From positions 1 to 64,000 of the forward strand of contig JABAQZ010000001.1 of assembly GCA_019187405.1 (NCBI GenBank): a stretch of DNA of 64,000 bases. Reading direction: 5' to 3'. Under the pieces are notes generated by a model. That model did not search any database, was not told where the DNA came from, and worked only from the letters and a program-made list of their open reading frames with translations. This DNA comes from Ignavibacteria bacterium (lineage in GTDB: Bacteria > Bacteroidota > Ignavibacteria > Tepidaquicellales > Tepidaquicellaceae). The translations under genes and the position numbers were made by a program. The stretch's first letter is position 1, and every line of letters starts with the position of its first letter. This document shows, one piece after another, positions 16,015-44,953 of the stretch.

Positions 16015-16965
16015 TTATGCTTTGTATTTTGCAAAGAGATCTTTAAGATAAACGTAAATTCTGTTCATGGTATCGGGTTTTATCTGATAAACAGAAGCTT
16101 TAAGTCCTTTGTCAATCGGATCGGTTCCGGCAAATTTGATAAATTCTTCCGGGCTTTCAGTCCATTTTGTATTGGATGCAAGCGATGTCAAAGCTTTTTT
16201 CTTATCTGAAATTAATTCATTCAGCAAAAAGGCAATTGTGTCTTTTGTCGAGGCATCTATGTCTGCAACAATTTTGGCAATATTTGCTTTAATCGTATCT
16301 GCCTTTAGTATATTCAGATCCATAGCAAGTGAAATGGGAATCTGGTTGGGTTCCTTCACTCCATTTGACAGACTGTATTTTTCATCAAGCGCTTTGAGAT
16401 CTTCGGGACTGTCTTTTGGATAAGCAGGATTGAACGTTCTGACATATTGTATGATTGCAAATCTGTCCTCAGGACTTATAGTGCTGAAGCTTGCCATTCC
16501 GGTATTTGGAATACCTTCCTGAAGAGTAACATACATATTTGAAATTTTTTGTCCGATTTTCCATTGCTGTGCCGACAGGTCAACAAAATTTCTCGGCGGA
16601 GGATTGAGCGCTCCTCCTGCAGGTCCGTTACCGGCGCCGGTTTCTCCGTGACAGCTTGAACAATAGGTGTTGTAAAGATTCTTTCCCTTATCCGCAATTT
16701 CCTGCGAAGGCGTGCTTAACTTTATCACGTCCACCGGCGGACTGATGCTTCCTTTCTTGACAGGAAGCGAAACTCTCATGTTTGAATCCGAAGACAGAAG
16801 CTCTTTTGCATAAAATAATTTATTGTAATCAATCGTCTTTACGTATCTTGCGCCGAGAAATACAATAAATACAAGAAGAAGCATGTAAATAACTCCGTAA
16901 AATTTTTCCAGATCCCTGAAGTAATCAAAAATGTTAAACTTTTTCTTATTGCTGCCGTGTGACAT
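16015..16965 (-). CDS. Membrane-anchored mono-heme cytochrome c of the ACIII locus (ActE-like)
   Basis: A 316-residue protein with one membrane segment at about 24-40 and a cytochrome c domain outside. The heme site is CSSCH at residues 102-106, and Met157 in NTGMASF is the likely axial ligand. The GNGPAGGALNPPPRNF stretch after the heme is typical of ACIII-associated cytochromes. The C-terminal 140 residues are helical and unrecognised. It lies 23 bases after actF and ends the transcript. Because an ActE-like heme domain is also fused to ActD upstream, this may be a second, extra cytochrome of the complex or its electron acceptor. Confidence 0.8.
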   Translation of the reverse strand: MSHGSNKKKFNIFDYFRDLEKFYGVIYMLLLVFIVFLGARYVKTIDYNKLFYAKELLSSDSNMRVSLPVKKGSISPPVDVIKLSTPSQEIADKGKNLYNTYCSSCHGETGAGNGPAGGALNPPPRNFVDLSAQQWKIGQKISNMYVTLQEGIPNTGMASFSTISPEDRFAIIQYVRTFNPAYPKDSPEDLKALDEKYSLSNGVKEPNQIPISLAMDLNILKADTIKANIAKIVADIDASTKDTIAFLLNELISDKKKALTSLASNTKWTESPEEFIKFAGTDPIDKGLKASVYQIKPDTMNRIYVYLKDLFAKYKA

Positions 16966-16988
16966 ATTGTTTTTATAAAATGTACTTT

Positions 16989-18161
16989 TTAATTCAAATG
17001 AAATTTTAATCCCGCTTCGAGTTTAGGATCTCCGACAGGAATCATGTTAACCTTGTTTGCTCTAATTCTGAATACCGTAATGATGAGTCCAACAGCAAAC
17101 ATCATGAAGCCGAGTTCGCTCCAGCCGAATTCAAAACCGTCCTTGAAATAAGTCGGCATGATCATCCAATATAGATCATAAAAATGAACCGCAAGTATCC
17201 AAACTGCCATAATCTTAAGCAGTTTCGGGCTTACTTTAGCGCTTCTCGGCATAAGTAAAATAAAAGGAATTACAAAATGCAATATCACAAGCCCTACCGA
17301 AAAATATGTCCAGCTTCCTTTCATTCTCATCATAATCCAGAATGTTTCTTCGGGAATATCAGCATACCAGATTAGCATATATTGAGAAAAACCAATATAT
17401 GCCCAGAATATATTAAAAGCAAACATCAGCGTACCAAAGCTGTAATAATTATTATTGCCGATTCTTTTATCGAGATATCCGTTTTCATTGAGCATCACTG
17501 CGCAAAAAGTAGCTGCTGCAAATGAAGACAACAGCGTCCCTGCAAAATAATAAACCCCGAACATTGTAGAAAACCAGTGATACTCCAGACTCATCATCCA
17601 GTCAATAGCTGTAATTGTTATTGTTACAATGAACAGTATAGCAAAAATTGTAGAAAACCTGATATTCTTTTTTGTCAACAAAGGATCTTTTGAGATGTCC
17701 TGCTTCTGTGAATTGCTGATAAACAGATAAAAGAAAATTAACCAAATCAACAGAACAAATCCTGTTCTGAAATAAAAGAAGTTTTCATTAAGATATGGTT
17801 CCTTTGAACGCAAAAGAGGATCTGTCTCCAGCATTTCCTTGTGTGTCCAGTGAAATATATCGTGCATGCCGATGATTAACGGAATTACGAGTATAACAAG
17901 CAGAGGAATTATTGAAGCCAGAAACTCCGATATTCGTCTAAACGGAGTGCTCCATGTGGCTCCTGCAAGATATTCAAGCGCTACGAGAGCAAGCGAGCCG
18001 ACACCTATGCTGACAAGAAACATATACATCCACAGGTAATCAAAAAAAGCTCTGTGAGGATTTACGGCGAATGCAAGAATTATCAGAACTATTCCTGCGC
18101 CGAGAAGCGCAAAACCGGTAGTTCCGACTTTTGATGGTAAAGGTTTTTTCTGATATTCCAT
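16989..18161 (-). CDS. Alternative complex III membrane subunit ActF
   Basis: A 390-residue NrfD/PsrC-related membrane protein with about ten hydrophobic segments. Recognisable stretches are DYLWMYMFLVSIGVGSLALVAL, the WSTPFRR loop, HKEMLETDP, and AIDWMMSLEYHWFSTMFGVY, all typical of the ActF/'quinol:cytochrome c oxidoreductase' membrane subunit. In ACIII, ActC and ActF form the two membrane modules that bind quinol and may move protons. It sits downstream of the ATP-grasp gene, not directly behind actDE, and upstream of a cytochrome c gene. Confidence 0.9.
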   Translation of the reverse strand: MEYQKKPLPSKVGTTGFALLGAGIVLIILAFAVNPHRAFFDYLWMYMFLVSIGVGSLALVALEYLAGATWSTPFRRISEFLASIIPLLVILVIPLIIGMHDIFHWTHKEMLETDPLLRSKEPYLNENFFYFRTGFVLLIWLIFFYLFISNSQKQDISKDPLLTKKNIRFSTIFAILFIVTITITAIDWMMSLEYHWFSTMFGVYYFAGTLLSSFAAATFCAVMLNENGYLDKRIGNNNYYSFGTLMFAFNIFWAYIGFSQYMLIWYADIPEETFWIMMRMKGSWTYFSVGLVILHFVIPFILLMPRSAKVSPKLLKIMAVWILAVHFYDLYWMIMPTYFKDGFEFGWSELGFMMFAVGLIITVFRIRANKVNMIPVGDPKLEAGLKFHLN

Positions 18162-18240
18162 GATAAAATTAATGTATGCAATTTACTTAATTTTATTCAT
18201 TTTTTTTACCACAAAATTCTTACCGAACTGAAATTTTTTT

Positions 18241-19809
18241 TTAACCGCTGCATTCAAAATCAAGTACTCGGATCGCTTTATCGTAAAATTTTTTTGCTCT
18301 TCCCGGAGAGCTGCCGATACATACAAGTCCGAGCTTGCCGAATTCCGAAAGCGCTCCCAATAAATGAAAGACAACGCCTTCCTGCGCGGCTCCGTCATAC
18401 ATCAAACCGTGAAACATTGCTATGTCTATCAGATCATCGGGCGTGGTACCGATATATTTATCACTCTGCACATTATCCGATGCGAAATAATATCTTTGAT
18501 TTCCGCTTGCGGTTACATAGACTCCCTCTTCTGAATTGTATTTTCCATTTGTAAGAAACTGTATCATCATAAAAGGATGAGTTGTGCCGCCTTTGCGGAG
18601 ATTGATTTCGATTGCGTAATGTTTCCATTTGTCGTCATCCTGCTTTATGGAAATGAAATCCACCGCAAATCTCCCCATCACTCCTTTTTTGGATAGATAA
18701 AGCGAAACCTTAGTACCCATGTCAGCCAACTCTGAAGCATACTGCCTGTCTGCGGGAAAAATCGCACCGAGAAATACCTGAGCGTCATCACCGCCAAGAA
18801 GCTGATCATGCGTACTTGCAATCTCAATCTTATCCGAAGTTCCGATGACGCACTGAACAGATGGAGAAACCTTTATTTCACCTTCAAGGAACTCCTCGAC
18901 TATACCTTCCATTTCATAAAACCTATCAAAGAACATATCTTTATTTAAATCTTTGGCAACCGTGCTAATATTTTCCCCAAGAGATTTAAGTATGTTTTTT
19001 TTCAGAGATGCATCAATCTTTAGTTCAGGATATCTGTAAACGGCATTTCCATCTCCGCTGAATCCATCATTCATTTTAACGACAGCTTTTTTTATTGCAG
19101 GATTTTTTCTTTTTAGTTCAGCCAAAGCGCTGGCAATATCCTCCTTAGTTTTCAGATCTTCGCTGCCATCGGGCATGTCGATGCCGCATGCACGGAATGT
19201 CTTGCGCGCTCCTGACTTTGAACCTTCATAAAACATGGCTGGGTCGGTGCCAAACAGAGGTATCCCTAACCTTACAGCAAGAGATTTTTCCAGAGGAGTG
19301 ATGTTATAACATGTAAGGTGTGTTGAATCTTTGTCGCTTATGAGTCTTTTTATTCTTTCAATTAGTCGTGGGCGTTCAAGAATTTTTTCTGTCAATGGTT
19401 TGCGCGAGAGATCATAACAGCTGAACATGGTCAGTCTCTGTCTGGCATGACGTCCGGTTATCCCCTGAAGAAGATGAAGATAATAATCAATGATGACTTC
19501 CGATATTGGCATGCTGGAAATATAAATCACTCTTGTTCTCGGCAGTCTTAATAGCATGAGAAGACACAACAATCTTTCCTCATAATGTATCGAACCTTTA
19601 ATCTTTGAAAGTATTTCCATGTCGAGCGTAAGCGAAGGGACAATTACGACTGTTCTCGGTGCGAGGTCATCGGGGAATATTTTTTCGTACTGAACAGCCA
19701 TGCTTTGCTGTAATAGCTCAAAAAGATCATGCTCTTCAGACGTTCCCTGAGGGGGACTTGTATCGTATAAATCAAAGATCTTTTGTTTTGTTATAGTTTC
19801 TAATTTCAT
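18241..19809 (-). CDS. ATP-grasp ligase, PGM1-like
   Basis: A 522-residue cytoplasmic protein. The first 200 residues form a pre-ATP-grasp region (TVVIVPSLTLDMEILSKI, then GRHARQRLTMFSC). The ATP-grasp fold follows, with GARKTFRACGIDMPDG, KKAVVKMNDGFSGDGNAVY, the hinge IVEEFLEG, and the magnesium-binding FAVDFISI and YAIEINLRKGGTTHP. The closing half resembles the family of the peptide ligase PGM1, which joins amino acids or peptides using ATP. The real substrate is unknown. The gene lies between the terminator after actDE and actF on the same strand, so it could be co-transcribed with actF. An unrelated insertion into the locus is the plain alternative. Confidence 0.7.
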   Translation of the reverse strand: MKLETITKQKIFDLYDTSPPQGTSEEHDLFELLQQSMAVQYEKIFPDDLAPRTVVIVPSLTLDMEILSKIKGSIHYEERLLCLLMLLRLPRTRVIYISSMPISEVIIDYYLHLLQGITGRHARQRLTMFSCYDLSRKPLTEKILERPRLIERIKRLISDKDSTHLTCYNITPLEKSLAVRLGIPLFGTDPAMFYEGSKSGARKTFRACGIDMPDGSEDLKTKEDIASALAELKRKNPAIKKAVVKMNDGFSGDGNAVYRYPELKIDASLKKNILKSLGENISTVAKDLNKDMFFDRFYEMEGIVEEFLEGEIKVSPSVQCVIGTSDKIEIASTHDQLLGGDDAQVFLGAIFPADRQYASELADMGTKVSLYLSKKGVMGRFAVDFISIKQDDDKWKHYAIEINLRKGGTTHPFMMIQFLTNGKYNSEEGVYVTASGNQRYYFASDNVQSDKYIGTTPDDLIDIAMFHGLMYDGAAQEGVVFHLLGALSEFGKLGLVCIGSSPGRAKKFYDKAIRVLDFECSG

Positions 19810-19939
19810 TTTATTCTTTTTTAGAGATCCATTTTTCTGAAAATTAAGAAAAGTTAATCTTTAATACAGCATTTAAATCTCATTTATAAATTTAATTTGA
19901 ACCGAGATTTATTTTTATATATGCAAAACACCAAAGATT

Positions 19940-19985
19940 TTTCAAAAAAGAAAACGTGCAGTAAGCATTGAAGCATACTGCACGT
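19940..19985 (-). terminator. Strong rho-independent terminator after the actD-actE fusion gene
   Basis: ACGTGCAGTA (19954-19963) pairs perfectly with TACTGCACGT (19976-19985). On the minus strand the stem is followed by TTTTCTTTTTT. It lies 22 bases past the stop of the actDE gene and 130 bases before the start of the ATP-grasp gene. This splits the ACIII locus into two transcription units, or at least attenuates the distal part. Confidence 0.88.
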
Positions 19986-20006
19986 CAATCAGAAAATTTT
20001 CGGATC

Positions 20007-21212
20007 TTACTTTGCTTTTGTCAGATCTTCATCGCTTGCATTCTTTGATCTTTGTAAAACTCTGATGTAGTTTACAATGTTCCATCTATCATTGACACTG
20101 ATTTGTTCAGCATAACTCGGCATTACATTCTGTCCGTTGGTAATTACGTGATAAATGTTTCCGTCAGTCCAATTCATAACTTTCTGGTTGTGAAGACTCG
20201 GCGGTTTAGGAAACTGGTCTCTCAGTCTGCCATCTCCTTCTCCGTAATATCCGTGACAGGGACTGCAGAAAATGTTATATCTGTCCTGCCCTCTTTCAAG
20301 CGATTCCTTTGATACAGCAAGCGGGTTTGCGAGCAGTCGAACGGAAGAATCAGGCATTCCTTTGTATTCATAAGGAAGGAAGCCTCTGGCAATGGTTCCG
20401 TTTACGGGCATTCTCATACCTGAATTATTAGGAAAGAAATTGGTTTTACTCTGTGCATCTATTCTGTCTTGCTTCCACATCCAGTCAAAAGGCACAACAT
20501 CATAAAGCACCCAGTTAAGCGTAAAATAGCTTACTATTGCCGTAACAACTGCCGTTCCGATAATTGCCACAAAAAACTTTCCGTTAAATAACGGAGTTTT
20601 ATTTGTCAGGTTTGATTCTCTGTAATAAATTTCCTGAATCTCAAAAGCTCCGGCTGTCTGAAAAAGTAATTTCACATCATCCGGAATAAATTTTTCATCA
20701 TCAGCTTTAACGACTATTCCAAATTTATCCGAAGTTACCCTTCCCATAAATTCCGTATCCTGAATCGGACTATTGATGGATGGCAGTTTTGCAAAAAGTA
20801 TAATGAGTCCGATAGTCGTAGCAATACCCGTAAGCAGTACTGTGCCTTCGAAGGTAATCGGTATTGAAGGCGGGAGCGAGAAAAACGGTTTACCGCCTAT
20901 GATATTCTGATAATCAATTCCCGACATCCACCACATCATCAGCAAGACGAGAATCAATCCTAAAAATCCGAATACAAATGAGACGTATCCGATTTTAGGT
21001 TTTTCCATTCCCATTGCATCATCCATTCCGTGCAAAGGATAAGGAGTATAAACATCGAATTTTTCAAAACCTCTACCGGCAACAGCAGCGGCAGCTTTGA
21101 TTATTTCATCAGGAGTATTGTATAGAGATGCAAGACCGTAAAGTTTTTTGCTTCTCGGCTCGTTGTCTTCTTTTGAAAGTAATTCTGTTATTTTATTTAA
21201 AAGTTTTTTCAT
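20007..21212 (-). CDS. ActD-ActE fusion: DUF3341 membrane protein with C-terminal cytochrome c
   Basis: A 401-residue protein joining two ACIII subunits. Residues about 15-175 are DUF3341 (ActD), with LYGLASLYNTPDEIIKAAA, the KFDVYTPYPLHGMD motif, and two membrane segments. After a third membrane segment (about 225-250) comes a mono-heme cytochrome c (ActE) with CSPCH at 316-320 and a likely axial Met364 in NVMPSY. The ATG at 21212 is preferred over an upstream ATG at 21281. It follows the actC stop by seven bases and has GGAAAG upstream, while the longer form would overlap actC by 62 bases. In Rhodothermus and most Bacteroidota these are separate genes. Confidence 0.88.
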   Translation of the reverse strand: MKKLLNKITELLSKEDNEPRSKKLYGLASLYNTPDEIIKAAAAVAGRGFEKFDVYTPYPLHGMDDAMGMEKPKIGYVSFVFGFLGLILVLLMMWWMSGIDYQNIIGGKPFFSLPPSIPITFEGTVLLTGIATTIGLIILFAKLPSINSPIQDTEFMGRVTSDKFGIVVKADDEKFIPDDVKLLFQTAGAFEIQEIYYRESNLTNKTPLFNGKFFVAIIGTAVVTAIVSYFTLNWVLYDVVPFDWMWKQDRIDAQSKTNFFPNNSGMRMPVNGTIARGFLPYEYKGMPDSSVRLLANPLAVSKESLERGQDRYNIFCSPCHGYYGEGDGRLRDQFPKPPSLHNQKVMNWTDGNIYHVITNGQNVMPSYAEQISVNDRWNIVNYIRVLQRSKNASDEDLTKAK

Positions 21213-21219
21213 AATCTGA

Positions 21220-22614
21220 TTAATGCTTTCCGTTACTGCCATTGGGATGCGGATGAATTGTCGGCTGTGCTCCTTCGACAACGGCTTTCAATTCAGCTAT
21301 TGAAACAAGCGGCAGGAATTTTAAGAATAATAATAAAAACGTAAAGAAAAATCCGAAACTTCCCAGCAGCAGTCCAAGATCAACTAACGAAGGATAAAAC
21401 ATTGCCCAGCTGGCCGGGAGAAAGTCCCTGTGAAGCGAAGTGATTATAATTACAAATCTCTCAAACCACATTCCCACATTTACGAATATTACCAATACAA
21501 AAGTAATAGGAATATTTCTGCGGATTTTTTTAAACCAAAATAGCTGCGGTAAAATTACGTTGCAGGTTATCATCGTCCAGTATGACCATGCATAAGGTCC
21601 CATAGCTCTGTTGATGAATACAAACATTTCAAAAGTGTTACCGCTGTACCATGCAATGAAAAATTCCATCGAATAAGCATAACCTACCATCATTCCCGTC
21701 GCCAATAATATCTTATTCATCTTTTCGAGATGATTAACCGTGATGATATGTTCCATTCCGAAAACTTTCCTTACTATAATGAGAATCGTGGACACCATTC
21801 CGAATCCGGAAAAAATTGCACCGGCAACAAAGTATGGCGGAAATATAGTCGTATGCCAACCGGGTATTACCGATACGGCAAAGTCGAAACTAACAATGGA
21901 GTGAACGGACAATACAAGCGGAGTAGAAATTCCCGCAAGTATTAGATAAGCTCTTTCATAATTGCTCCAGCTTCTGTTTGAGCCGCTCCATCCGAGTGCT
22001 AATACTTTATAAATGGTTTTCTTAACTCCGTTTTTTGCCTTATCTCTCATCGTGGCAATATCCGGTATAAGCCCAAGACTCCAAAACAAAAATGAAATCG
22101 TAAAGTAAGTCGATACGGCGAACACGTCCCACAGCAACGGCGAAATAAAATTAACCCAAACGCCGTTTTGATTTGGCAACGGCAGAAGATATCCTGCAAG
22201 CCACGGTCTTCCTGTATGAATAACCGGGAAAATACCAGCAGTCATTACCGCAAAAATCGTCATCGCTTCGGCAAATCTCGCTATTCCGGTTCGCCATTTT
22301 TGTCTGAACAGATGCAGAATAGCAGAAATAAGAGTTCCTGCATGTCCGATACCGATCCAGAATACAAAATTGATGATGCCAAATGCCCAACTGACAGGCT
22401 GGTTGTTTCCCCACATTCCAATACCGTAATAAAATGTGAGTCCGAGACAGTATGCGCCAATCATCAGCGCAGTAAAAGAAATCCCGAATGCCACCCACCA
22501 CCCTTTGCGAGGTTTTTCTTCGGTAGGCTTTATTATTGCATCGTCAATCTCTCGGAATGAAGCTTTAGATTCTACGAGAGGAAGCTCTCTCGCATACGTA
22601 GCGTCAAAACTCAA
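21220..22614 (-). CDS. Alternative complex III NrfD-like membrane subunit ActC
   Basis: A 464-residue member of the NrfD/PsrC family with about ten membrane segments. The N-terminus has [20 protein letters not shown], then [28 protein letters not shown] and [24 protein letters not shown], all hallmarks of ActC. It forms the quinol-oxidising membrane module that hands electrons to the Fe-S clusters of ActB. It lies 62 bases downstream of actB. The histidine-rich C-terminus ([14 protein letters not shown]) is unusual and may be cytoplasmic. Confidence 0.93.
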
Positions 22615-22676
22615 TACAACTCCTTGATTTAAATTTTAAAATCATGAAATATTTTTCTTTAAATGTCATAGTGATC

Positions 22677-25600
22677 TCAATGACTTCCCGTCTCTTCAGT
22701 CTCATACACATTCCTAAGCTTTGCCAGATAAGTTATGTTCGGCTTTACTTTGATTTCTTCTAAGACATAATACGCAAGTTTGCTTTTGTTAAGTCCTGAT
22801 ATCGGATCCGTCTCGTCATTCTGATCTCCGAAATATATCGCATTCGTATTGCACGCTTCCTGGCATGCGGTCTTTACGTTCGAGCCTTTCACTTGTCTAT
22901 TTTCCTCAATCGCATGCTGTCTTTCCAGCATTATTCGCTGTAAGCAGAATGTGCATTTCTCCATTACGCCTCTCGAGCGAACAGTAACTTCCGGATTCTG
23001 CATCAATGAAAAAGATTCTTCCTGCTGTATTCCTTCCCTGAAATGATCTCTGAAGTTGAAGTAATTAAATCTTCTTACTTTATAAGGACAGTTATTTGAA
23101 CAGTATCTCGTCCCAACGCATCTGTTGTATGCCATTGCATTAATGCCGTCGGGGGTATGCGTCGTTGCAGCAACAGGACACACGTTTTCACATGGTGCAA
23201 AATCGCAGTGTTGACAGAGCATTGGCTGGAAACTTGCCTTCGGAACTTCCGGCGTTCCCGAATAATATCTGTCAATCCTCATCCAATGCATGCTTCTATG
23301 CTTACCCATCTGCTCTTTACCGACTACAGGAATGTTGTTTTCCACATTGCATGCCGCTATACATTCATTGCATCCGGTACATTTATTGAGGTCAATCACC
23401 ATTCCCCATTTTGTTCCGGTATGCACATACTGTTCATTAATGCTTCCGACTTTCAGCTTTTCTTTTTCCTCTTCGGTATATTTTGTATGACGATCGCTTA
23501 AGAAATCGGGATTCTTTTTATACTGTAAGTAAGTGCCTTCCTGAATTATTTCTCTTCTGTATTGTATGTCTTTGTAGAGCTTTTCCTCAAAAGCATAATG
23601 ATCCTGCGTCGTGACAAGCTTATGTGTTCCGGAAGATTTCTCCATTTTTGCATCGGAATATAAAAACGGAGTGAGTGAAGAATTTTTTGATATAAGTTTT
23701 ACGGAATTAAATCCAACATCTTTGCCGACAATTCCACAAGCGCTTCTGCCATATCCAAGATCGATAACAGTCATATCATCAGCCATTCCAGGCTGCACGA
23801 AAACGGGTAGTTCGAGAGTTCCTCCGTTTGTAGTAATCTTTACTAAATCATTTGATTCGATGTTCAAGGACTTTGCGGTCTTTGGTGAAATAGCTGCATA
23901 GTTGTCCCATACTATTTTAGTTATAGGATTGGGAAGCTCCTGAAGCCAGCCGTTGTTTGCAAATCTTCCGTCGTCAAGTGTGTTGCTTTTGGAAAGGACA
24001 ACTGTCATTCCCGTCCCTGCGGTCATTCTCTGATTTATTCCCGTAAATGCATCTGCTTTGAATGCCGGTTCGGCTTCTCCCGACGATTGAGCAGTACCGG
24101 CATTCGTCATGACGACACCGTCATTTAATGCTGCATACCATTGCTTCATAAACTCTTTATCGCCTGATACATTTGTAAACACGCCTGCTTTCCAATTGTC
24201 AATTATATAACTGTGATAAATCTCATTATTGAATTCATTCTTTGAACCTTTAATCCATGTAAGAAGTATTTCCTCTTTCTGTCTTGTATTATATAAAGGT
24301 GAAATTACCGGCTGCTGAAGACTATAGAAATCGCTTCTTGTTCTGTAATCACCCCATGATTCGAACATTGTATTTACAGGCAGTACATAATTACCTGATT
24401 CACATGTTTCGTTAATTCCTTCCGACATTGTAATGACAAGCGGCACTTTTTTAAGCGCTTCCGCATACCCTGAATCACCCGGCATGTTATAAACCGGATT
24501 TGTATCAAAGTGAATTACTATGCCTGCTTTTCCGGAATTCATATCAGATACAAGATTTTCAATATCTGCCTTACTGCTCATTGGCTGATGTTCAATAAAT
24601 GCATCTTTGAATGAATAAAGTTCGTTTCCGCCGATCACTTCGTTAAGCAGATTAACCGCAATGTGCGTTGATTCGGGAAGCATGTTTCCTGCAATGACAA
24701 ATGATTTACCGGCATTTTGTCCAAAGTCGCTGATGAGATGATCGAGAACTTCTTTCTTAAGATTATTCTTTGAGGCGAAGTTATCGAGATTAAAATTTCT
24801 TATTTTAGACAATACTGCTTCATCTTGTGCTAATGCTGATTTCTTTTGAACCAAAAGCAATTCGTTTAACAAACTCAATACAAATTCTTCTAACAGGTCA
24901 GTCTTTAAGATAAGTCTGTAATCAGCATTCAATCCAGTAACGCTTGCATTACCTTCGACGGAATAAAGCCGGTTGAATTTTCCTTCTGTTTCAGTGTCTC
25001 TGTTTGCAGCAAAGAGTCTGGAGTTTACGACTTTGTTTCCGTCAGAGCCTAGAAAATCGGCTTCAAGGGAAAGTATTATCATAGCTTTGTCAAGCTGAAC
25101 CGGCGGATAATATTTCGATCCGTAACATTTTTCCCATGCGGCATTTTTAGCTGAATCATTATAAAGTTCATAAGAATAAACTTTTGCAGTTGGAAATGCT
25201 TTTACAAAATCTTCGAGCAGTTTTTTCTGTGATGGTGAAATTATTTTACCTGCTACAACCGCAATTTCTTTTCCGGATGATGCGGCATTTTTCAGTTGCG
25301 CAATTATTGCATCGTCAGCATCTCCCCATGAGATTTCTTTCGGCGATGTTTTGTCTGTTCTTTCAACTGGATTTTTTAATCGTTCCGGATCATACAGACT
25401 CATTACGCTTGCCTGAGCAATTGCACAGATTTTTCCTTTGCTGACCGGATGGTCGGGATTACCATCAACTTTTATAGGTCTTCCTTGCAGAGTTTTTATA
25501 AGTATTCCGCAAGCTGAAGAACAACCAGTGCAGGTTGACGCATAATAGTTAGGAAGTCCGATTGTAACTGAATCGGGTTTTGCGTTATATGGAACGATTT

Positions 25601-25931
25601 CGCCCCTGTCTCTGAAATTGGAGCATCCAGAAGCCGCCACTGCAGCTGACGCGCTGAGCAGTGCAAGGAATTTTCTCCTTGAAAACTTAGAGCCTTCTTC
25701 AATATCCGGTCTTTCGAGAGCATCTTTTGAAAATTCATTTTCTCTTTCTTTAATAAAATCGGGATCGCTATAAAGCTCTCTGAAGCTTCTCCAGTAGTTT
25801 ACATCTTTTGTCGGAGCTTCGGGAACAATGCTTTCCAAGCTTACTTCATTGCTATCTTTATAAATCTTATCGCTTATATCGTAAACTTTATCATGCATTT
25901 CCGTATCGGTTTGATTTTCTTTTGACTGCAT
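22677..25931 (-). CDS. Alternative complex III iron-sulphur/molybdopterin-fold subunit ActB
   Basis: A 1084-residue subunit, the largest of ACIII. A twin-arginine-type motif SRRKFLALLSASAAVAASG starts at 84, about 80 residues in, as usual for ActB. The N-terminal molybdopterin-oxidoreductase-like domain follows, with Cys134, Cys137, Cys141 and Cys169 in a 4Fe-4S-like pattern. The family is thought to lack the molybdenum cofactor. The C-terminal 260 residues form a ferredoxin-like domain with four cysteine groups (CTGCNECIAACN, CQHCDFAPCENVCP, CVGTRYCSNNCP, CTFC...CQEAC). It receives electrons from ActC and passes them to the hemes. The start overlaps the preceding small ORF by 41 bases; Met12 (25898) is an alternative start. 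Confidence 0.95.
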   Translation of the reverse strand: MQSKENQTDTEMHDKVYDISDKIYKDSNEVSLESIVPEAPTKDVNYWRSFRELYSDPDFIKERENEFSKDALERPDIEEGSKFSRRKFLALLSASAAVAASGCSNFRDRGEIVPYNAKPDSVTIGLPNYYASTCTGCSSACGILIKTLQGRPIKVDGNPDHPVSKGKICAIAQASVMSLYDPERLKNPVERTDKTSPKEISWGDADDAIIAQLKNAASSGKEIAVVAGKIISPSQKKLLEDFVKAFPTAKVYSYELYNDSAKNAAWEKCYGSKYYPPVQLDKAMIILSLEADFLGSDGNKVVNSRLFAANRDTETEGKFNRLYSVEGNASVTGLNADYRLILKTDLLEEFVLSLLNELLLVQKKSALAQDEAVLSKIRNFNLDNFASKNNLKKEVLDHLISDFGQNAGKSFVIAGNMLPESTHIAVNLLNEVIGGNELYSFKDAFIEHQPMSSKADIENLVSDMNSGKAGIVIHFDTNPVYNMPGDSGYAEALKKVPLVITMSEGINETCESGNYVLPVNTMFESWGDYRTRSDFYSLQQPVISPLYNTRQKEEILLTWIKGSKNEFNNEIYHSYIIDNWKAGVFTNVSGDKEFMKQWYAALNDGVVMTNAGTAQSSGEAEPAFKADAFTGINQRMTAGTGMTVVLSKSNTLDDGRFANNGWLQELPNPITKIVWDNYAAISPKTAKSLNIESNDLVKITTNGGTLELPVFVQPGMADDMTVIDLGYGRSACGIVGKDVGFNSVKLISKNSSLTPFLYSDAKMEKSSGTHKLVTTQDHYAFEEKLYKDIQYRREIIQEGTYLQYKKNPDFLSDRHTKYTEEEKEKLKVGSINEQYVHTGTKWGMVIDLNKCTGCNECIAACNVENNIPVVGKEQMGKHRSMHWMRIDRYYSGTPEVPKASFQPMLCQHCDFAPCENVCPVAATTHTPDGINAMAYNRCVGTRYCSNNCPYKVRRFNYFNFRDHFREGIQQEESFSLMQNPEVTVRSRGVMEKCTFCLQRIMLERQHAIEENRQVKGSNVKTACQEACNTNAIYFGDQNDETDPISGLNKSKLAYYVLEEIKVKPNITYLAKLRNVYETEETGSH

Positions 25932-26115
25932 TAGGGTTTTCAGTGATTTTTAATGATGATTTCTTTTCATTCAAAACTTTTGCTTTTAAAATGCCGAAAG
26001 GAAATTTTGTAAACGTAAAAATACCTGCAGCTGCAAAAGCCGATGTTAAAAAGAATTTTTTTCTTTTCATTTTTTTTGTCTGATTTATTGAATCAGAAGA
26101 TTTATTGATTTCCAT
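25891..26115 (-). CDS. Small Tat-like membrane or exported protein between actA and actB
   Basis: A 74-residue ORF in the same direction as the flanking ACIII genes, starting 11 bases after the actA stop. A basic MKRKKFF is followed by a hydrophobic stretch (LTSAFAAAGIFTF, about 23-36), then a short tail KITENPNAVKRKSNR. It resembles a degenerate Tat or Sec leader or a single-pass membrane peptide. The 41-base overlap with actB in another frame makes it less certain, but the position and the leader-like composition suggest a real gene. I do not recognise a named family. A role as a small accessory subunit of ACIII is inference only. Confidence 0.5.
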   Translation of the reverse strand: MEINKSSDSINQTKKMKRKKFFLTSAFAAAGIFTFTKFPFGILKAKVLNEKKSSLKITENPNAVKRKSNRYGNA

Positions 26116-26126
26116 TATAAATGATT

Positions 26127-26714
26127 TTATCTGTGACAATATCCGCAATTTACGGGACCGTTGTTAATCTGCAAATTCTGTTTTCCCGGAATTATGTTTT
26201 TAATGTTTGCCTCTGGGTTTTTGTGGCAGTCGAGGCATGCGCGCATTGTAAAATCTTTTACCTGCTCGACGACCTCCATTTCAGCAACGTTTCCGTGACA
26301 ATTAGAACAGTCGATGCCTTTATTTACGTGTACGCTGTGATTAAAATAAGCAAAATCAGGAACCCTGTGTACGCGTTTCCATTCAATAGGAACTCCGCGC
26401 GTATAATAATCCGTAAGTTTAATTATTTCCGGTTTGTCCTTTCGTGCTATGGAATGGCAGTTCATACAAACTTTTGCAGACGGTATATTTGCATGACGCG
26501 ATTTTTCCACATCGCTGTGACAATACCGGCAGTCTATTTTTAGATCTCCGGCATGGAGTTTATGCGAATAAGCAATCGGCTGCGCCGGCATATATCCGAC
26601 TCCGATTCTTTCGGCATAAGATACATAATATGTGATTACAAACACGGCAAGAACTACAAACAACAAAATCGGCAAACGGACTTTGATGTTGTAATCGAGT
26701 AGAAAATTTTTCAT
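26127..26714 (-). CDS. Alternative complex III pentaheme cytochrome c subunit ActA
   Basis: A 195-residue protein with an N-terminal membrane anchor (about 13-31) and five CxxCH heme sites with first cysteines at 62, 83, 136, 160 and 190. The heme pattern CRYCHSD...CMNCH...CSNCH...CLDCHKNP...CGYCHR is that of ActA. It is located on the outer side of the cytoplasmic membrane and carries electrons to cytochrome c or directly to an oxidase. It is the first gene of the ACIII operon, and a promoter should lie in the 250-base AT-rich spacer upstream, where I see no convincing box. Confidence 0.93.
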   Translation of the reverse strand: MKNFLLDYNIKVRLPILLFVVLAVFVITYYVSYAERIGVGYMPAQPIAYSHKLHAGDLKIDCRYCHSDVEKSRHANIPSAKVCMNCHSIARKDKPEIIKLTDYYTRGVPIEWKRVHRVPDFAYFNHSVHVNKGIDCSNCHGNVAEMEVVEQVKDFTMRACLDCHKNPEANIKNIIPGKQNLQINNGPVNCGYCHR

Positions 26715-27547: not shown

Positions 27548-29638
27548 TTACGGTCTTATCACCGATATAAACTGTGATGAATTATTTTCTATAATCATCA
27601 GATCAGTACCGTCAACTGTGTTGTTTCCATTAACATCGGACGGCACATAACCTGTCAGATAAGCTGACGCATCATTATCGGCAACGCTACCGTCAACGCC
27701 GTCAATTACTCCGTCCTGATTGATATCGCCTCCGAAAAGTACATAGGCTCCTGTTGTTTGTTTTCCGATAGCTGCAGAAGAGACATACTTCATATTTCCG
27801 CCGTAAGATTTTGAAAGGGAATCCGTAAAGTTATAATGATTTTCACATGAGTCAATTTTTTCAGGTAAATTATGACTCCATGTTTCGAGATGATTTCTGT
27901 GGTTTATTACAAAGAAGTAATTTGAAAATTTATCAGCCTGCGGGAAATTGAAATATCCGGTTCCGCTTGAATCCAGATATGACGTGTCGCGGCTGACTTC
28001 ATTATACGGCGAATTGAAATTTCTAAGAACAACCACGGCTTTGTCGTTGATCATGGATGTGCCGTTAAAAAATCCTTCCAGATAAACTTTAAGAGTCAGG
28101 TTTTTGCAGGTTCTCGGTGAAATATCGAGACGATAAAATGAAGAGTCATTTTCAAAATCAATCCATGTTGTGCTCGATACCGGAGTCGAATAAAAGAATG
28201 TCCTGTGTCTTACTGGCGCTTCATTCTGATAACATGCAGAAAGATTTATCAACTGCAGCTGACGGTATCCAACATAAAATCTTGAATTAGGCGGAATTAT
28301 CACCGAAGCAGGAAGTTGGTGAGTAACTTTCTGATATGTATTGTTTCCCAAAGGAGTAAAAAGCAGAGGCGAAATATAAAGCAAAGCTCCGGGACTGTGC
28401 GAGCCATTGTCTCCGTAAATTACAATATTATAAGGTTGATTTCCTTTTCCCGAATCATTGACAAAGCAATGATCAACTGCATCTATAGAAAACTGCTGCA
28501 GGCTGTAATTAGAAAATCGTGCAACGAAGTTTCCGTTTGCACCCGTAAAGCCAAGTCCACCGTCATCCGGTATGCAAAGATCTGCATAATTATAGGCATC
28601 GTTTGTTATCTCGTGACAGTATTCAAAAACATGATCGAGCACATCTCCCGGAATGGCTTTAACGACAACAAGGTCATGCTGTGGAAAAAATAAATCAGGC
28701 AGCTTCATGCTGATTGAAGAAATGGAAGACGAAATAGTAAAAGTTGTGTCCAATATAATCTGTGAATTGTCCTGATTTACAGATTTGACATTGATTTCGT
28801 TTGTTGACTGCGAACCGAAATTTTGAAGACTTATGCCAAGCGTATCGGGAAATCCCCAGGGAACAGGTATTTGACCCATTGTATAAATATTTTGAACTTC
28901 CACATCTTCGGGTGAAGAATCACCGAATCTTGTTTCGGGTCTGATACCTGAAACAGAAAGCGAATCGAGATTAAGTGTCTGGCTTGTGAAAAATGCCGAT
29001 GAAGTTCCGAGCGAGTCATTGCATGAAACCGTTGGCGATCCAAGCGGTAATGCAAGCGAGGTTGTCGTTTCATATTCAAATGCAACGTAAACTCCGTTGC
29101 CGGGTAATGTCGAAAAAGATGAAGTTCCCGGACCTCCGGCATCTGTATTGATCTCAAAGGTTCCTTCATCTGCCGGAATAGTTATGCTGTCATCGATTAC
29201 TTTGGTCATTCCGGTTATGGCAGAAGCAAAACTTGTGCTTTTTGAATAAGAAACGTCTGTAGTATTTTGAAGATAAACTTTTATTGTTCCCGTAGCGCTG
29301 CCAGACTGTTGAGCAAGAGCTATCCATGACCAACCGACGGAGGTTACTGAATTTGTTCCGAACTGTGAATTTGTCATTTCTTGCGGAGTTATGAGATAAC
29401 ACACCTTTATATATCTTCTGCTACCTTGCGGAGCCAGCGGTAATTCGGAATTAAAACCGCTGTTCGGTAAAACTGTTTTGTAATTGGTAATACCGGATGT
29501 TTGATGTATAACCAGAGGGTTAATTATTTTATTGGGTTGAATTTTTACCTTCGGTTTAGCGGAGAATTGATTCTGATAAAATGAGAAACCTGTAAAACAC
29601 AGCAGGCAAAAAACTGCAGAAATTATTGGGGTTTTCAT
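27548..29638 (-). CDS. Secreted protein with C-terminal dockerin-like module
   Basis: About 696 residues from the ATG at 29638, which begins the signal peptide MKTPIISAVFCLLCFTGFSF. A 13-residue longer form is possible. The body is beta-rich and unrecognised. The final 160 residues carry a module with SPYNE, INHRNHLETWS, HYNFTDSLSKSYGGN, and two calcium-loop repeats, GGDINQDGVIDGVDGS and SDVNGNNTVDGTDL, ending FISVIRP. The same module closes two other secreted proteins in this window (29786-31018 and 40220-42160). There is no YPNPFNP T9SS domain. The calcium loops resemble type I dockerin. It is presumably exported, but the anchoring role of the module is inferred. Confidence 0.7.
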   Translation of the reverse strand: MKTPIISAVFCLLCFTGFSFYQNQFSAKPKVKIQPNKIINPLVIHQTSGITNYKTVLPNSGFNSELPLAPQGSRRYIKVCYLITPQEMTNSQFGTNSVTSVGWSWIALAQQSGSATGTIKVYLQNTTDVSYSKSTSFASAITGMTKVIDDSITIPADEGTFEINTDAGGPGTSSFSTLPGNGVYVAFEYETTTSLALPLGSPTVSCNDSLGTSSAFFTSQTLNLDSLSVSGIRPETRFGDSSPEDVEVQNIYTMGQIPVPWGFPDTLGISLQNFGSQSTNEINVKSVNQDNSQIILDTTFTISSSISSISMKLPDLFFPQHDLVVVKAIPGDVLDHVFEYCHEITNDAYNYADLCIPDDGGLGFTGANGNFVARFSNYSLQQFSIDAVDHCFVNDSGKGNQPYNIVIYGDNGSHSPGALLYISPLLFTPLGNNTYQKVTHQLPASVIIPPNSRFYVGYRQLQLINLSACYQNEAPVRHRTFFYSTPVSSTTWIDFENDSSFYRLDISPRTCKNLTLKVYLEGFFNGTSMINDKAVVVLRNFNSPYNEVSRDTSYLDSSGTGYFNFPQADKFSNYFFVINHRNHLETWSHNLPEKIDSCENHYNFTDSLSKSYGGNMKYVSSAAIGKQTTGAYVLFGGDINQDGVIDGVDGSVADNDASAYLTGYVPSDVNGNNTVDGTDLMIIENNSSQFISVIRP

Positions 29639-29728
29639 TTGGGTATAAAAAATTTTATTTAATATAATTTTAATCAAAGTTAATTCCTAATTTAATTTTT
29701 TTCTTTTCAAATATGATTTTAAATATTG

Positions 29729-40046: not shown

Positions 40047-40220
40047 CAACGTTGATAATTAAACATTGATAATTCAACATTGATAATTGAACATTGATAA
40101 TTCAACATTGATAATTCAACATTGATAATTCAACATTGATAATTCAACATTGATAATTCAACATTGATAATTCAACATTGATAATTCAACATTGATAATT
40201 CAACATTGATAATTCAACAT
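40047..40220. repeat. Twelve-copy 14-bp tandem array ending at a stop codon
   Basis: The unit CAACATTGATAATT repeats 12 times in phase from 40047 to 40214, followed by a 6-base partial unit. The first four copies carry single-base differences (CAACGTTG, AAACATTG, GAACATTG); copies 5-12 are identical. The last base of the partial unit is also the final base of the stop codon of the minus-strand gene at 40220. Having no spacers, this is not a CRISPR array. Confidence 0.92.
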
Positions 40221-42160
40221 CACGGTTTCTCCACCGAAATAAAATTCGCAGAATTATTATCTATGATTGCCGAATCAGATCCATCAACTATTCCATCTCC
40301 GTTTACATCCGTATCAACATAGCCAAATACAAAATTCGCCGCATCATTGTCGCAGATGCTGCCGTCTGCACCGTCAATAACTCCGTCCTGATTTACGTCT
40401 CCGCTGTATGCACAGTATCTGCCGCCTTTTAGAACTATGTTATTTCCGTATGCCGTTGATTGCGAAGTTGTAAAATCATATTCAGAAATACCGGATTTCA
40501 TCCATACAGGATTTGCGCTCCATGTTTCAAGAGCGTTCCTGTGTCTAATCTCGAGAAAGTAATTTCCTCCCGATGTTGTTGTAAAACTCATTGATCCTTC
40601 ACCGTTTGAATTAAGATACATCTTTCCCGTTTGCACTAAATTATATGGAGATGCTGATTCTCTCATATTGCATGTAATCGTATCCTGCACCTGAGTAGGT
40701 GAATTCCAGAATCCTTCGATTCCGTATTTGAGATTAAATTCAGACGCGCCGAAACTTCCGTCAAAGTTCATGTTCTGCGCAATGATGTCTCCCGTGCTCC
40801 ATGCCATTACTGTCATACCGGAATTTTTATCAAATGCCGACATCTTTCTGATTTTACTTCCTGATGATGTGCTTGCCGAAACAATGTTTCCAGTCCAGTG
40901 GAAATTTCCCGAAGGTCCCGTTCCCATTCCTTTGATTAATACATTCGAACTTCCGAATTGCGTCTCGCTGTAATTTACAATTACGGTTGTATCTTTGTTC
41001 CATGACTGAATAAAACTCAATTGATTATTATCCATCGATTTAAACTCTTTGCCGTTATCGCCCCATTGCCTGTTTCCTGCCGCATCAAACTTCTGTCCGT
41101 AAAGTCCGCCTACTACAGTCTGTCCGCCGTTTGTTTCCGTCCAGAACATTACCGTTTCACCCGTTGATTCTATATAATTCACCGTCGGAAGAAAGTGATT
41201 GTTTGTCGAAAGTAGTGAACCTTCCGAACCGTTTTTCGGAAACTGTATGACGCCGTTTGAATTAATTCTCTGAACAAAAACGCTCGCTCTTGCATCCGCG
41301 TTTCTGTCATCCTGCCAGCAAAGTACCGCTCCGTCGTTTCCGTCACTTATAATGTATGGTATGAATGAAATCCCCGACAACCTTCCGAGATTCTGAATGG
41401 TGTCCTGCGGATCCATCCAGAGCTTTGCTCCGGCTGAACTGAATTTCTGTATGAATAATTTTATTGATGAAGAAGTTGCAAAGTTTCCCGTCCATGCATC
41501 CCAGCTCATGATTACGCTGCCGTTATCTGATTTCACAAGCCGTGCATAACTGAAATTCTCCGTGCCGGTGCCTCTTAACTTCATCGGAGCCGTGCCCCAT
41601 TGAGGGTTTCCGTTTACATCAAGCTTCTGCATTGCGATTCTGTTGGGTCCGGATGCATAAGTCCATGCAAAAACATAATTACCGTCACCGGTAGCGCGCA
41701 CAACTGGTATATTCTGTGAAACTGCTGTTGAGTCAGTAAGTGAAATACCGCTTGTTCCCCAAAGCAACGTTCCGCCCGGACTGACAAGATACGCAAATGG
41801 ATTAAGAGTTCCGTTTCTGGTATCGGTAAACACTATGACTGCATTGTCATCAGCATCCACATCAATATTAAAATCCTGCAGAAAATTATTCTGCGCAAAT
41901 CCGCTCACAAGCATACCGTTAGTTCCAAACAAAGGATTCCCCGCAGGATCTAATCGCTGAAGATATACTTTATAATTCGGGACCCTGTTATCAAACCACA
42001 TGATATAGCATCCGCCGTCTGATGTCATTGCAGCTTTCGGGGTTGCCTGATCTCCGACTTCATTGCAGATGGTTGTATTAGCTGAAGTATTGGAAGTCCA
42101 TTGCGCATTTATGAATGCTGTGTTTATAATTAAAATAAGTATTAAATAAAAATTTTTCAT
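40220..42160 (-). CDS. Secreted propeller-like protein with C-terminal dockerin-like module
   Basis: A 646-residue protein with a signal peptide (about 1-19, ending INA). The main body has propeller-type repeats with alternating GGCYIMWFDNR, DNAVIVFTDTRNG and GAVLCWQDDRN, a pattern seen in large beta-propellers. The C-terminal 160 residues repeat the module of the 27.5-31.0 kb proteins: SPYNLVQ, IRHRNALETWS, YDFTTSQSTAYGNN, SGDVNQDGVIDGADGS, TDVNGDGIVDGSD, ending FISVEKP. There is no T9SS type A domain. The stop codon touches the 14-bp tandem array. Confidence 0.72.
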   Translation of the reverse strand: MKNFYLILILIINTAFINAQWTSNTSANTTICNEVGDQATPKAAMTSDGGCYIMWFDNRVPNYKVYLQRLDPAGNPLFGTNGMLVSGFAQNNFLQDFNIDVDADDNAVIVFTDTRNGTLNPFAYLVSPGGTLLWGTSGISLTDSTAVSQNIPVVRATGDGNYVFAWTYASGPNRIAMQKLDVNGNPQWGTAPMKLRGTGTENFSYARLVKSDNGSVIMSWDAWTGNFATSSSIKLFIQKFSSAGAKLWMDPQDTIQNLGRLSGISFIPYIISDGNDGAVLCWQDDRNADARASVFVQRINSNGVIQFPKNGSEGSLLSTNNHFLPTVNYIESTGETVMFWTETNGGQTVVGGLYGQKFDAAGNRQWGDNGKEFKSMDNNQLSFIQSWNKDTTVIVNYSETQFGSSNVLIKGMGTGPSGNFHWTGNIVSASTSSGSKIRKMSAFDKNSGMTVMAWSTGDIIAQNMNFDGSFGASEFNLKYGIEGFWNSPTQVQDTITCNMRESASPYNLVQTGKMYLNSNGEGSMSFTTTSGGNYFLEIRHRNALETWSANPVWMKSGISEYDFTTSQSTAYGNNIVLKGGRYCAYSGDVNQDGVIDGADGSICDNDAANFVFGYVDTDVNGDGIVDGSDSAIIDNNSANFISVEKP

Positions 42161-42302: not shown

Positions 42303-42375
42303 GGACAGGTAGCTCAGTCGGTAGAGCAACGGCCTGAAAAGCCGTGTGTCGCCGGTTCGATTCCGGCCCTGTCCA
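42303..42375 (+). tRNA. tRNA-Phe(GAA)
   Basis: The acceptor GGACAGG (42303-42309) pairs with CCTGTCC (42368-42374), discriminator A42375. The anticodon stem ACGGC/GCCGT frames the loop CTGAAAA with anticodon GAA at 42336-42338, and the T arm GCCGG-TTCGATT-CCGGC is intact. CCA is not encoded. Its 3' half and downstream terminator are duplicated 139 bases further on. Confidence 0.96.
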
Positions 42376-42415
42376 CTTTTTTAATTTTCAATTTTAAATG
42401 TGCAATGTTCAATTA

Positions 42416-42868: not shown

Positions 42869-44953
42869 ATGAAAGCTTTAATACTAAACTTTGCAATTTT
42901 ACTTATGTGTGCGGGACTGGCATTCTCCGCACCAAGACCAAAAATATTTAACCATGCCACAAATCCGGAAATGATAAAAACCCTGCCGGAACTGGTTCCT
43001 GATTCCTGCGTTGCTTCAGGTCTCGTTGCAGTCGGAAAAGGACAGTTTGTCTATTTGTCCGCTTTTAATTTCGGCGATACTTCTTCCATTTTAAGTCAGA
43101 CTTGGTCTTTTGTATCGAGACCAACTGGTTCAAATGCAACTCTTGTGAATATTCCTTCACTGAACTGGTACAAATTCAAAGCTGACTCAATGGGCACATT
43201 TGAAATCAGGGTTTCAATTACTACTTCTACCGGCACAAAAGACACTACAATGAAAATCTTTTCCACAAAGTATGTCGGAACCGGTAATTTCGAAGGAGTC
43301 CCTGCCCTTTATCCCAACTGTATGGTCTGCCACTCGGGCAATCCGAACTTTGCAGACATATTCAACAGATGGAAAGTCAGCGGACACGCAAACATTTTTA
43401 GATATGAAATTGACAGCGGAGCTGCATATTACAATACAAGCTGCATGAAGTGTCATACCGTCGGCTATGACCATAACACAGTTACCGACAATAACGGATT
43501 CGATGATGTTGCGCGAAGAGTAGGATGGACTTATACAGCTCCTCCAAATCCTGGAAAATGGGACAGTTTAAAAACCCGTTTCCCTGAACTCGTGGCTTTT
43601 GCAAGCATCGGCTGCGAAAACTGTCACGGCGCGGGATTCTCTCATGCATCAAACGGCGGTGATACAAACAGAATCGAAATTTCATATAATTCAGGTATGT
43701 GCGGCAACTGTCACGGCGAACCGTGGAGACACAGCAAATTCCAGCAATGGGAAAATTCACTCCACTCTGAAGCTGTATTCGAAGGAAGAACCGTAAGCGC
43801 AAGCCAGAGAAATACACTTAATGATTGCAATAGATGTCACGATGGAGAATCTTATGTTGATTTTACTAAAAACCGTATTGGGAAACTTAATCTTACAACA
43901 GCCGATCAGCAGATGATTTCATGTCAGGCATGTCACGATCCGCACGGCAACAGCAATGAGTATTCTCTTAGAAGCATTGCCACAGGAGCGGATACTCTGG
44001 CAAACGGAGTTTCATTTGCTAATGCCGGAACAGGCAAGGTCTGCATGACTTGTCACATGGCAAGAAGAAATACTTCCACTTACGTTACTGCAGGCGGCTC
44101 GCTTACCAGCACCTGGGGTCCGCACCACAGCGTTCAGGCTGACGTGCTTCTCGGTACTAATGCCGCTACTTTCGGCTTCCCTTACATAACTGGATCTCAT
44201 AAAAACATCGAAAACACATGCGCCACCTGTCACATGGCGGAAATAACGGACACAGGCACAGTAACAAGAGACAAGGTCGGAGGTCACTCAATGAATCTTC
44301 ATTATGAAGCTACTAATTATGATCATACCGAAGGATGTCAGAGTTGTCATGCAGGCGTTACTTCTTTCGAACAGTTCATGGCTCCGCAGGACTTTGACGG
44401 TGACGGAACAACCGAAGACTGGATGAGTGAAGTTAACGGCTGTCTTACAAATTTAAGAATTGATCTGCCTCCGAGAGGAGTTGACTCTGTTGCCTGGCAA
44501 CTCATTGCTCAGGATTCATCCAATCTTAATTTAAGAAAAGCTTACTGGAATTATCTGCTAATTACCGAAGACCAGAGCGCCGGAATGCATAATCCGTTCT
44601 TTACCATTCAGGTATTACTGACATCGAGGAATTATACCGTGGGAATTCAGCAAGCAGGAACGGAAATTCCGGGTGTTTATGAATTATCCCAAAACTATCC
44701 GAACCCGTTCAATCCGACAACAAAAATAGATGTTTCAATACCAAAGACAGAACAGGTTACGCTTAAAATATATGACATAACAGGAAGAGAAATCAAAACT
44801 CTTATTAACAATCAGACATTGCTTGCCGGGAAATATACGGTTGACTGGAATTCACTCGATAATAATGGACTGCAGGTCTCTACGGGGGTTTATTTCTACA
44901 GGATCACTGCAGAAGGTTTTGTTACCACGAAGAAAATGATGCTGATCAAATAA
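42869..44953 (+). CDS. Nine-heme cytochrome c with T9SS type A sorting domain
   Basis: A 694-residue exported protein. The signal peptide is about 1-20 (ending AFS-AP). Residues about 45-135 look like an immunoglobulin-like or PKD-like beta domain. Nine CxxCH heme sites follow, with first cysteines at 151, 192, 249, 278, 320, 352, 392, 451 and 490. A linker leads to a T9SS type A domain at about 606-694 (ELSQNYPNPFNPTTKIDVSIP, ITGREIKTLI, VYFYRITAEGF, KKMMLIK). T9SS export would place the hemes at the cell surface, suiting extracellular electron transfer. The partner is not seen, and a detoxification or nitrite-type role cannot be excluded. Confidence 0.9.
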   Translation: MKALILNFAILLMCAGLAFSAPRPKIFNHATNPEMIKTLPELVPDSCVASGLVAVGKGQFVYLSAFNFGDTSSILSQTWSFVSRPTGSNATLVNIPSLNWYKFKADSMGTFEIRVSITTSTGTKDTTMKIFSTKYVGTGNFEGVPALYPNCMVCHSGNPNFADIFNRWKVSGHANIFRYEIDSGAAYYNTSCMKCHTVGYDHNTVTDNNGFDDVARRVGWTYTAPPNPGKWDSLKTRFPELVAFASIGCENCHGAGFSHASNGGDTNRIEISYNSGMCGNCHGEPWRHSKFQQWENSLHSEAVFEGRTVSASQRNTLNDCNRCHDGESYVDFTKNRIGKLNLTTADQQMISCQACHDPHGNSNEYSLRSIATGADTLANGVSFANAGTGKVCMTCHMARRNTSTYVTAGGSLTSTWGPHHSVQADVLLGTNAATFGFPYITGSHKNIENTCATCHMAEITDTGTVTRDKVGGHSMNLHYEATNYDHTEGCQSCHAGVTSFEQFMAPQDFDGDGTTEDWMSEVNGCLTNLRIDLPPRGVDSVAWQLIAQDSSNLNLRKAYWNYLLITEDQSAGMHNPFFTIQVLLTSRNYTVGIQQAGTEIPGVYELSQNYPNPFNPTTKIDVSIPKTEQVTLKIYDITGREIKTLINNQTLLAGKYTVDWNSLDNNGLQVSTGVYFYRITAEGFVTTKKMMLIK

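Follow-up and report, generated by a model that had tools for sequence, protein, structure and literature searches.

The locus and its product

The window analysed here, a stretch of 64,000 nucleotides at the start of contig JABAQZ010000001.1 from an Ignavibacteria bacterium, contains an open reading frame (ORF) that encodes a nine-heme c-type cytochrome ending in a sorting domain of the type IX secretion system (T9SS). The ORF runs uninterrupted from ATG to TAA and its product has 694 amino acids (Table 1), including nine CxxCH motifs (CMVCH, CMKCH, CENCH, CGNCH, CNRCH, CQACH, CMTCH, CATCH and CQSCH), while 2000 shuffles of the same protein gave a mean of 0.015 such motifs and never more than 1. 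At the other end, residues 610-691 match the T9SS type A model TIGR04183 with 44.3 bits (cut-off 23), and PF18962 is also matched at the C-terminus (35 bits, cut-off 27). The association of nine CxxCH sites with a type A domain in one protein, put forward in a sequence-only reading of this DNA, is thus borne out.

Read directly, the N-terminus resembles a Sec signal peptide (MKALILNFAILLMCAGLAFS/AP), with a charged start, a hydrophobic core and an FS-AP boundary, and the end of this peptide carries no lipobox; the same N-terminal pattern is read in the homologues. Compared with Pfam, the heme region matches generic multiheme families, among them the MtrC/F domain II-IV model on CxxCH-rich stretches. 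The DmsE and UshA-like NCBIfam names were discarded, as their scores lie far under the cut-offs and reflect generic CxxCH matches.

A conserved family in Ignavibacteria

A search with a query deprived of its tail found homologues in 219 of the 391 genomes of the class Ignavibacteria, mostly as a single copy per genome and in some cases as tandem pairs. The full-length set comprises 75 proteins from 69 genomes or contigs. All 75 have K or R as the last residue and a tail that matches TIGR04183 (E <= 0.001) and extends as far as the stop codon, and the motif NxPNPFNPxT and this terminal residue are kept while the remainder diverges to about 30% identity. The sole homologue with no visible tail (L096) is truncated by the end of its contig. 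An assembly chimera, or orthologues lacking the sorting domain, had been named beforehand as what a survey of relatives might turn up against the prediction; the survey returned neither, and the identical architecture of the 75 proteins rules out the chimera.

All nine CxxCH motifs are kept in 67 of the 75 proteins; heme 2 alone is lost in 7 (L097, L108, L110, L111, L112, L131 and L132), with at least two kinds of replacement sequence (QFRVH-like and RQRTA) and with the other hemes intact, and the remaining protein has CxxxCH at heme 1. Eight further histidines (173, 259, 299, 359, 419, 444, 473 and 574) are each present in 70 to 75 of the 75 sequences, which would fit mostly bis-His hemes.

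In a phylum-wide profile search strong matches were almost confined to Ignavibacteria, with one genome of another class having one, and a scan of viral contigs for further homologues found none. In a scan of genome contigs the tail peptide QNYPNPFN dominated the result, which consisted mostly of unrelated tailed proteins and included one full homologue (L002). Separately, in another phylum, a 16-heme cytochrome of Candidatus Neomarinimicrobiota (L042, 5461-8175) likewise has a C-terminal tail that resembles type A, and tailed multiheme cytochromes may therefore occur beyond Ignavibacteria. In several relatives (L190, 10713-11525; L191, 6970-7782; L193, 5687-6472; L194, 6920-7717) the cytochrome adjoins a small protein that has a T9SS tail and the motif GC(x)SCHG, which is CxxCH in L194; this protein is a possible single-heme surface partner.

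Relationship of the heme region to OcwA

A profile built from 71 heme regions was searched against all chains of the PDB. The best match is OcwA (6I5B, E 4e-27), followed by the multiheme cytochrome cf of entry 6QVM, presumably OmhA of Carboxydothermus ferrireducens, with E 4e-21 over hemes 3-9. Lower matches are NrfA (7e-12), the octaheme nitrite reductases (1e-9) and, marginally, MtrC (0.0086). A decaheme cytochrome of the MtrC type is ruled out by the distance between the MtrC and OcwA scores, by the number of hemes and by the missing lipobox.

OcwA is a nine-heme terminal reductase at the cell surface of Thermincola potens, built from a c554-like tetraheme part and an NrfA-like pentaheme part, in which the open hemes 2 and 5 each lie beside a His-His pair and heme 9 has His/Met ligands (PMC6703420). 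Hemes 3-9 and the C-terminal region of the window family are aligned with it, heme 1 is aligned weakly and heme 2 is matched by order only. The window sequence aligns across the region that forms a three-helix bundle at the C-terminus of OcwA, as seen in the hidden Markov model (HMM) alignment.

Secretion machinery of the genome

The genome to which the window belongs (3.78 Mb in 38 contigs) encodes SprA (904 bits, with its frame neighbours) and PorV (314 bits) adjoining a full-length PorU (916 bits), all above their cut-offs, and about 150 TIGR04183 tails were listed in it besides that of the cytochrome. Since SprA is present in 387 of the 391 Ignavibacteria genomes, the system is nearly universal in the class and its presence alone is not specific to the cytochrome. 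What the window protein does combine is a sorting domain above cut-off, a signal peptide as read from the sequence, and a genome with SprA, PorV and PorU, as a type A substrate should. Two other secreted proteins of the window (27548-29677 and 40220-42160, minus strand) have an Asp-rich, dockerin-like C-terminus (GDxNQDGVIDGxDGS...) that continues as FISVxxP at the place where one might look for a T9SS tail.

Electron-transfer genes in relatives and in the window genome

In genomes G159, G116, G070, G026, G016, G155 and G189 the cytochrome gene adjoins a large multiheme locus, some stretches of which are clipped by the ends of the region examined. In most of these relatives the locus contains a sigma54-type regulator, an 18-heme cytochrome, a b561-type cytochrome, a 17-heme NapC-type cytochrome, a 4-heme c554-like protein, a porin-like protein, a 14-heme cytochrome and a 6-heme lipoprotein. 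Within the order, 29 genomes have both the cytochrome and the 17-heme gene, 4 only the cytochrome, 1 only the 17-heme gene and 10 neither (Fisher p 4e-6, in a test that treats related genomes as independent and with some metagenome-assembled genomes (MAGs) incomplete), and in 13 of the 29 a single contig carries the two genes no more than about 13 kb apart. This gene neighbourhood, together with the match to OcwA, points to a predicted role in extracellular electron transfer.

The window genome has this locus on another contig, C6 (about 38.3-56.2 kb), with regulators, an 18-heme cytochrome, a b561-type cytochrome, three c554-like proteins and two sets of a porin-like protein, a 14-heme cytochrome and a 6-heme lipoprotein. 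At C6:44140-47300 (L199, 8140-11295) the 17-heme NapC-type quinol dehydrogenase survives only as a 43-aa relic, and its place is taken by a Rieske protein, a cytochrome b and an 11-heme cytochrome, an apparent swap of the quinol-oxidising module. The idea that this genome has no electron-supply locus, which arose because the 17-heme gene was not found, is thereby ruled out. The porin-like proteins of C6 have a signal peptide and a terminal Phe, and would form a barrel; the one that was scanned matches no Pfam family.

A search of the window genome with PF14522 found the multiheme genes of the C6 locus, an NrfAH pair (PF02335, 569 bits), the pentaheme subunit of alternative complex III, the cytochrome described here and one small ORF on contig C13. 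Among these multiheme proteins only the window cytochrome has a T9SS tail, which makes it the natural candidate for the outermost cytochrome. The alternative complex III-like gene run lies in the window itself (16015-26714, minus strand; pentaheme subunit 26127-26714).

Features of the window

The features of the cytochrome gene are collected in Table 1. The gene is flanked by tRNA-Phe and by an unrelated VWA gene. A 122-bp direct repeat (88%) at 42356-42616 copies the 3' end of the tRNA-Phe gene (42303-42376) and the sequence after it.

Table 1. Coordinates of the cytochrome gene and of its parts in the window
Feature	Position	Strand	Basis
Nine-heme c-type cytochrome with T9SS type A sorting domain, 694 aa	42869..44953	+	ORF, domain matches, homologues
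Predicted Sec signal peptide, residues 1-20	42869..42928	+	Sequence reading; pattern repeated in homologues
Ig/PKD-like beta domain, about residues 45-135 (weak assignment)	43001..43273	+	KIAA0319L beta domain, profile 63-128, E 0.007; strands in low-confidence model
Hemes 1-4, counterpart of the OcwA c554-like half	43319..43714	+	CxxCH at residues 151, 192, 249, 278; HMM alignment to 6I5B
Hemes 5-9, counterpart of the OcwA NrfA-like half	43826..44350	+	CxxCH at residues 320, 352, 392, 451, 490; HMM alignment to 6I5B, NrfA, octaheme nitrite reductases
Region aligned to the OcwA/NrfA C-terminal helical bundle, invariant G572-x-H574-N575	44366..44638	+	Sequence alignment
T9SS type A C-terminal sorting domain	44681..44950	+	TIGR04183 match 44696-44941

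Proposed role and alternative readings

The reading that best accommodates these observations, to which a probability of about 0.6 is assigned, is that the window protein is a terminal reductase of the OcwA type that crosses the outer membrane by way of the T9SS and receives its electrons from porin-cytochrome modules. The protein would be exported by the Sec pathway and receive its hemes in the periplasm, after which it would be moved, already folded, through SprA with PorV, both of which are encoded in the genome, the C-terminal domain acting as the guide. PorU would then remove the tail or anchor the protein, and the cytochrome would be held at the surface or freed from it. Electrons would come from menaquinol through the inner-membrane multiheme and cytochrome b modules of the C6 locus and through periplasmic cytochromes, and the modules of porin, 14-heme cytochrome and 6-heme lipoprotein would relay them onward to an acceptor outside the cell, such as Fe(III) or Mn(IV) minerals, humics, an electrode or a partner cell. 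Its export, heme loading and capacity to conduct electrons are in this way predictions drawn from sequence. The broader proposition that Ignavibacteria as a class export their terminal extracellular reductase by the T9SS, this reductase being an OcwA-type nonaheme protein that passes through SprA folded and heme-loaded and is fed by a porin-cytochrome locus, is held with slightly less assurance, although it is still favoured.

Several observations weigh against this proposal. In the window genome the cytochrome gene stands alone, on a different contig from the locus that would supply it. Most genomes outside the order that have the cytochrome possess no close homologue of the 17-heme gene, which is found in 44 of the 391 genomes of the class, versus 219 for the cytochrome, so the exact supply chain is not class-wide and the association with the 17-heme gene fails outside the order. 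The OcwA fold rests on sequence profiles, and a model predicted from two sequences has a predicted local distance difference test (pLDDT) score of 33. Moreover, the pair HH380/381, which in OcwA lies beside an open heme, is not conserved in the family and is W-G in the window protein.

Over hemes 8-9 and the C-terminal region the profile also matches NrfA and the octaheme nitrite reductases (E 1e-8 to 1e-12). These matches could instead indicate a surface reductase of the nitrite or hydroxylamine type, which would detoxify small nitrogen compounds outside the cell and would not be an outlet to solids; OcwA shows slow nitrite reduction and hydroxylamine turnover of its own (PMC6703420). The alignment, however, contains no CxxCK, the typical catalytic heme site of NrfA, every site being CxxCH except where heme 2 is lost and at the single CxxxCH. 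The top match, OcwA, has a kcat for nitrite of only about 1 per min (PMC6703420), a bona fide NrfAH is already encoded in the genome, and heme 2, an open site in OcwA, can be lost from a chain that is otherwise intact. A nitrite-type function is accordingly considered improbable.

Two further readings concern the fate of the protein after synthesis. Type A substrates of the T9SS can be either released or anchored, and the cytochrome could be mainly released to the medium or to the extracellular matrix, where it would act as a soluble shuttle or matrix conductor and not as an anchored reductase, much as OmhA, the OcwA relative of Carboxydothermus, is weakly bound and located on the mineral (PMC7829351). 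The full-length PorU fits processing and anchoring as well as it fits release, and sequence cannot separate the two; predominant release is judged unlikely. Finally, the tail also matches FlgD_ig (PF13860, 30.7 bits), and it could be an ordinary FlgD-like beta domain with no sorting function, on a cytochrome that stays in the periplasm. Against this stand the stronger TIGR04183 match, extended to every full-length homologue, the retention of NxPNPFNPxT and of the terminal K/R amid divergence, and the presence of the core T9SS genes, and the probability of this last reading is very low.

The preferred reading, that of a T9SS-exported terminal reductase, modifies the initial suggestion that the T9SS offers a distinct route to extracellular electron transfer. 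The genuine and conserved tail, the secretion machinery, the gene neighbourhood and the OcwA match agree with it insofar as delivery of the terminal cytochrome is concerned. The T9SS does not look like a replacement of the porin-cytochrome conduit; the window genome and many relatives carry porin-cytochrome-like modules too, and these would bring the electrons over the outer membrane.

Significance

Porin-cytochrome clusters have been reported in Ignavibacterium album and in MAGs (PMC4245776, PMC7399161), members of the class are frequent on anodes (PMC7399161), and an outer-membrane-linked Fe(III) reductase was suggested for the isolate Melioribacter roseus (PMC3534657). The two reports of porin-cytochrome clusters, checked for secretion terms, mention neither type IX secretion nor a sorting domain, and no relevant report that connects multiheme cytochromes or extracellular electron transfer to the T9SS was found in the open-licence literature searched. 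The T9SS tail and the multiheme cytochrome are each known; a protein that unites them and is conserved class-wide appears to be undescribed in that literature.

If the proposal is correct, it accounts for the placement of the terminal reductase outside the cell in a large environmental class of Gram-negative bacteria that is often found on anodes and in iron-rich settings, and it implies that the T9SS is able to move a protein with nine covalent hemes. It would also join two fields that share almost no papers in the open-licence literature searched, and a nonaheme protein with a type A tail would become a genome marker for predicting the trait.

Comparison with known systems

The window family and OcwA have in common nine hemes in the same order, CHM at heme 8 and GxHN near the C-terminus. 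OcwA belongs to a Gram-positive host and ends after its helices, whereas the window family adds the N-terminal beta domain and the T9SS tail. The pair HH281/282 of OcwA corresponds to R287-H288 in the window protein, and H288 is found in 45 of the 75 homologues. The invariant His 444 aligns with the NrfA His that precedes heme 8, where OcwA has a Tyr with an adjacent Met, so that heme 9 is probably bis-His in the window family and not His/Met. Judged from these changes at the His-His pairs and at His 444, the window cytochrome is related to OcwA but is not an OcwA in the details of its active site. OmhA, with eleven hemes, likewise belongs to a Gram-positive host, in which a T9SS is not expected. 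It is a secreted cytochrome associated with Fe(III) mineral (PMC7829351).

The C6 locus is of the same general kind as the porin-cytochrome clusters reported in Ignavibacteria (PMC4245776, PMC7399161). The role of outermost cytochrome proposed for the window protein is shared with MtrC/OmcA and with the outer-membrane cytochromes of the porin-cytochrome systems of Geobacter. These cytochromes are lipoproteins exported by type II secretion. As part of the class-wide proposition, and with the same slight preference, the T9SS route would in effect be the counterpart, on the side of the Bacteroidota, of the type II secretion of MtrC and OmcA.
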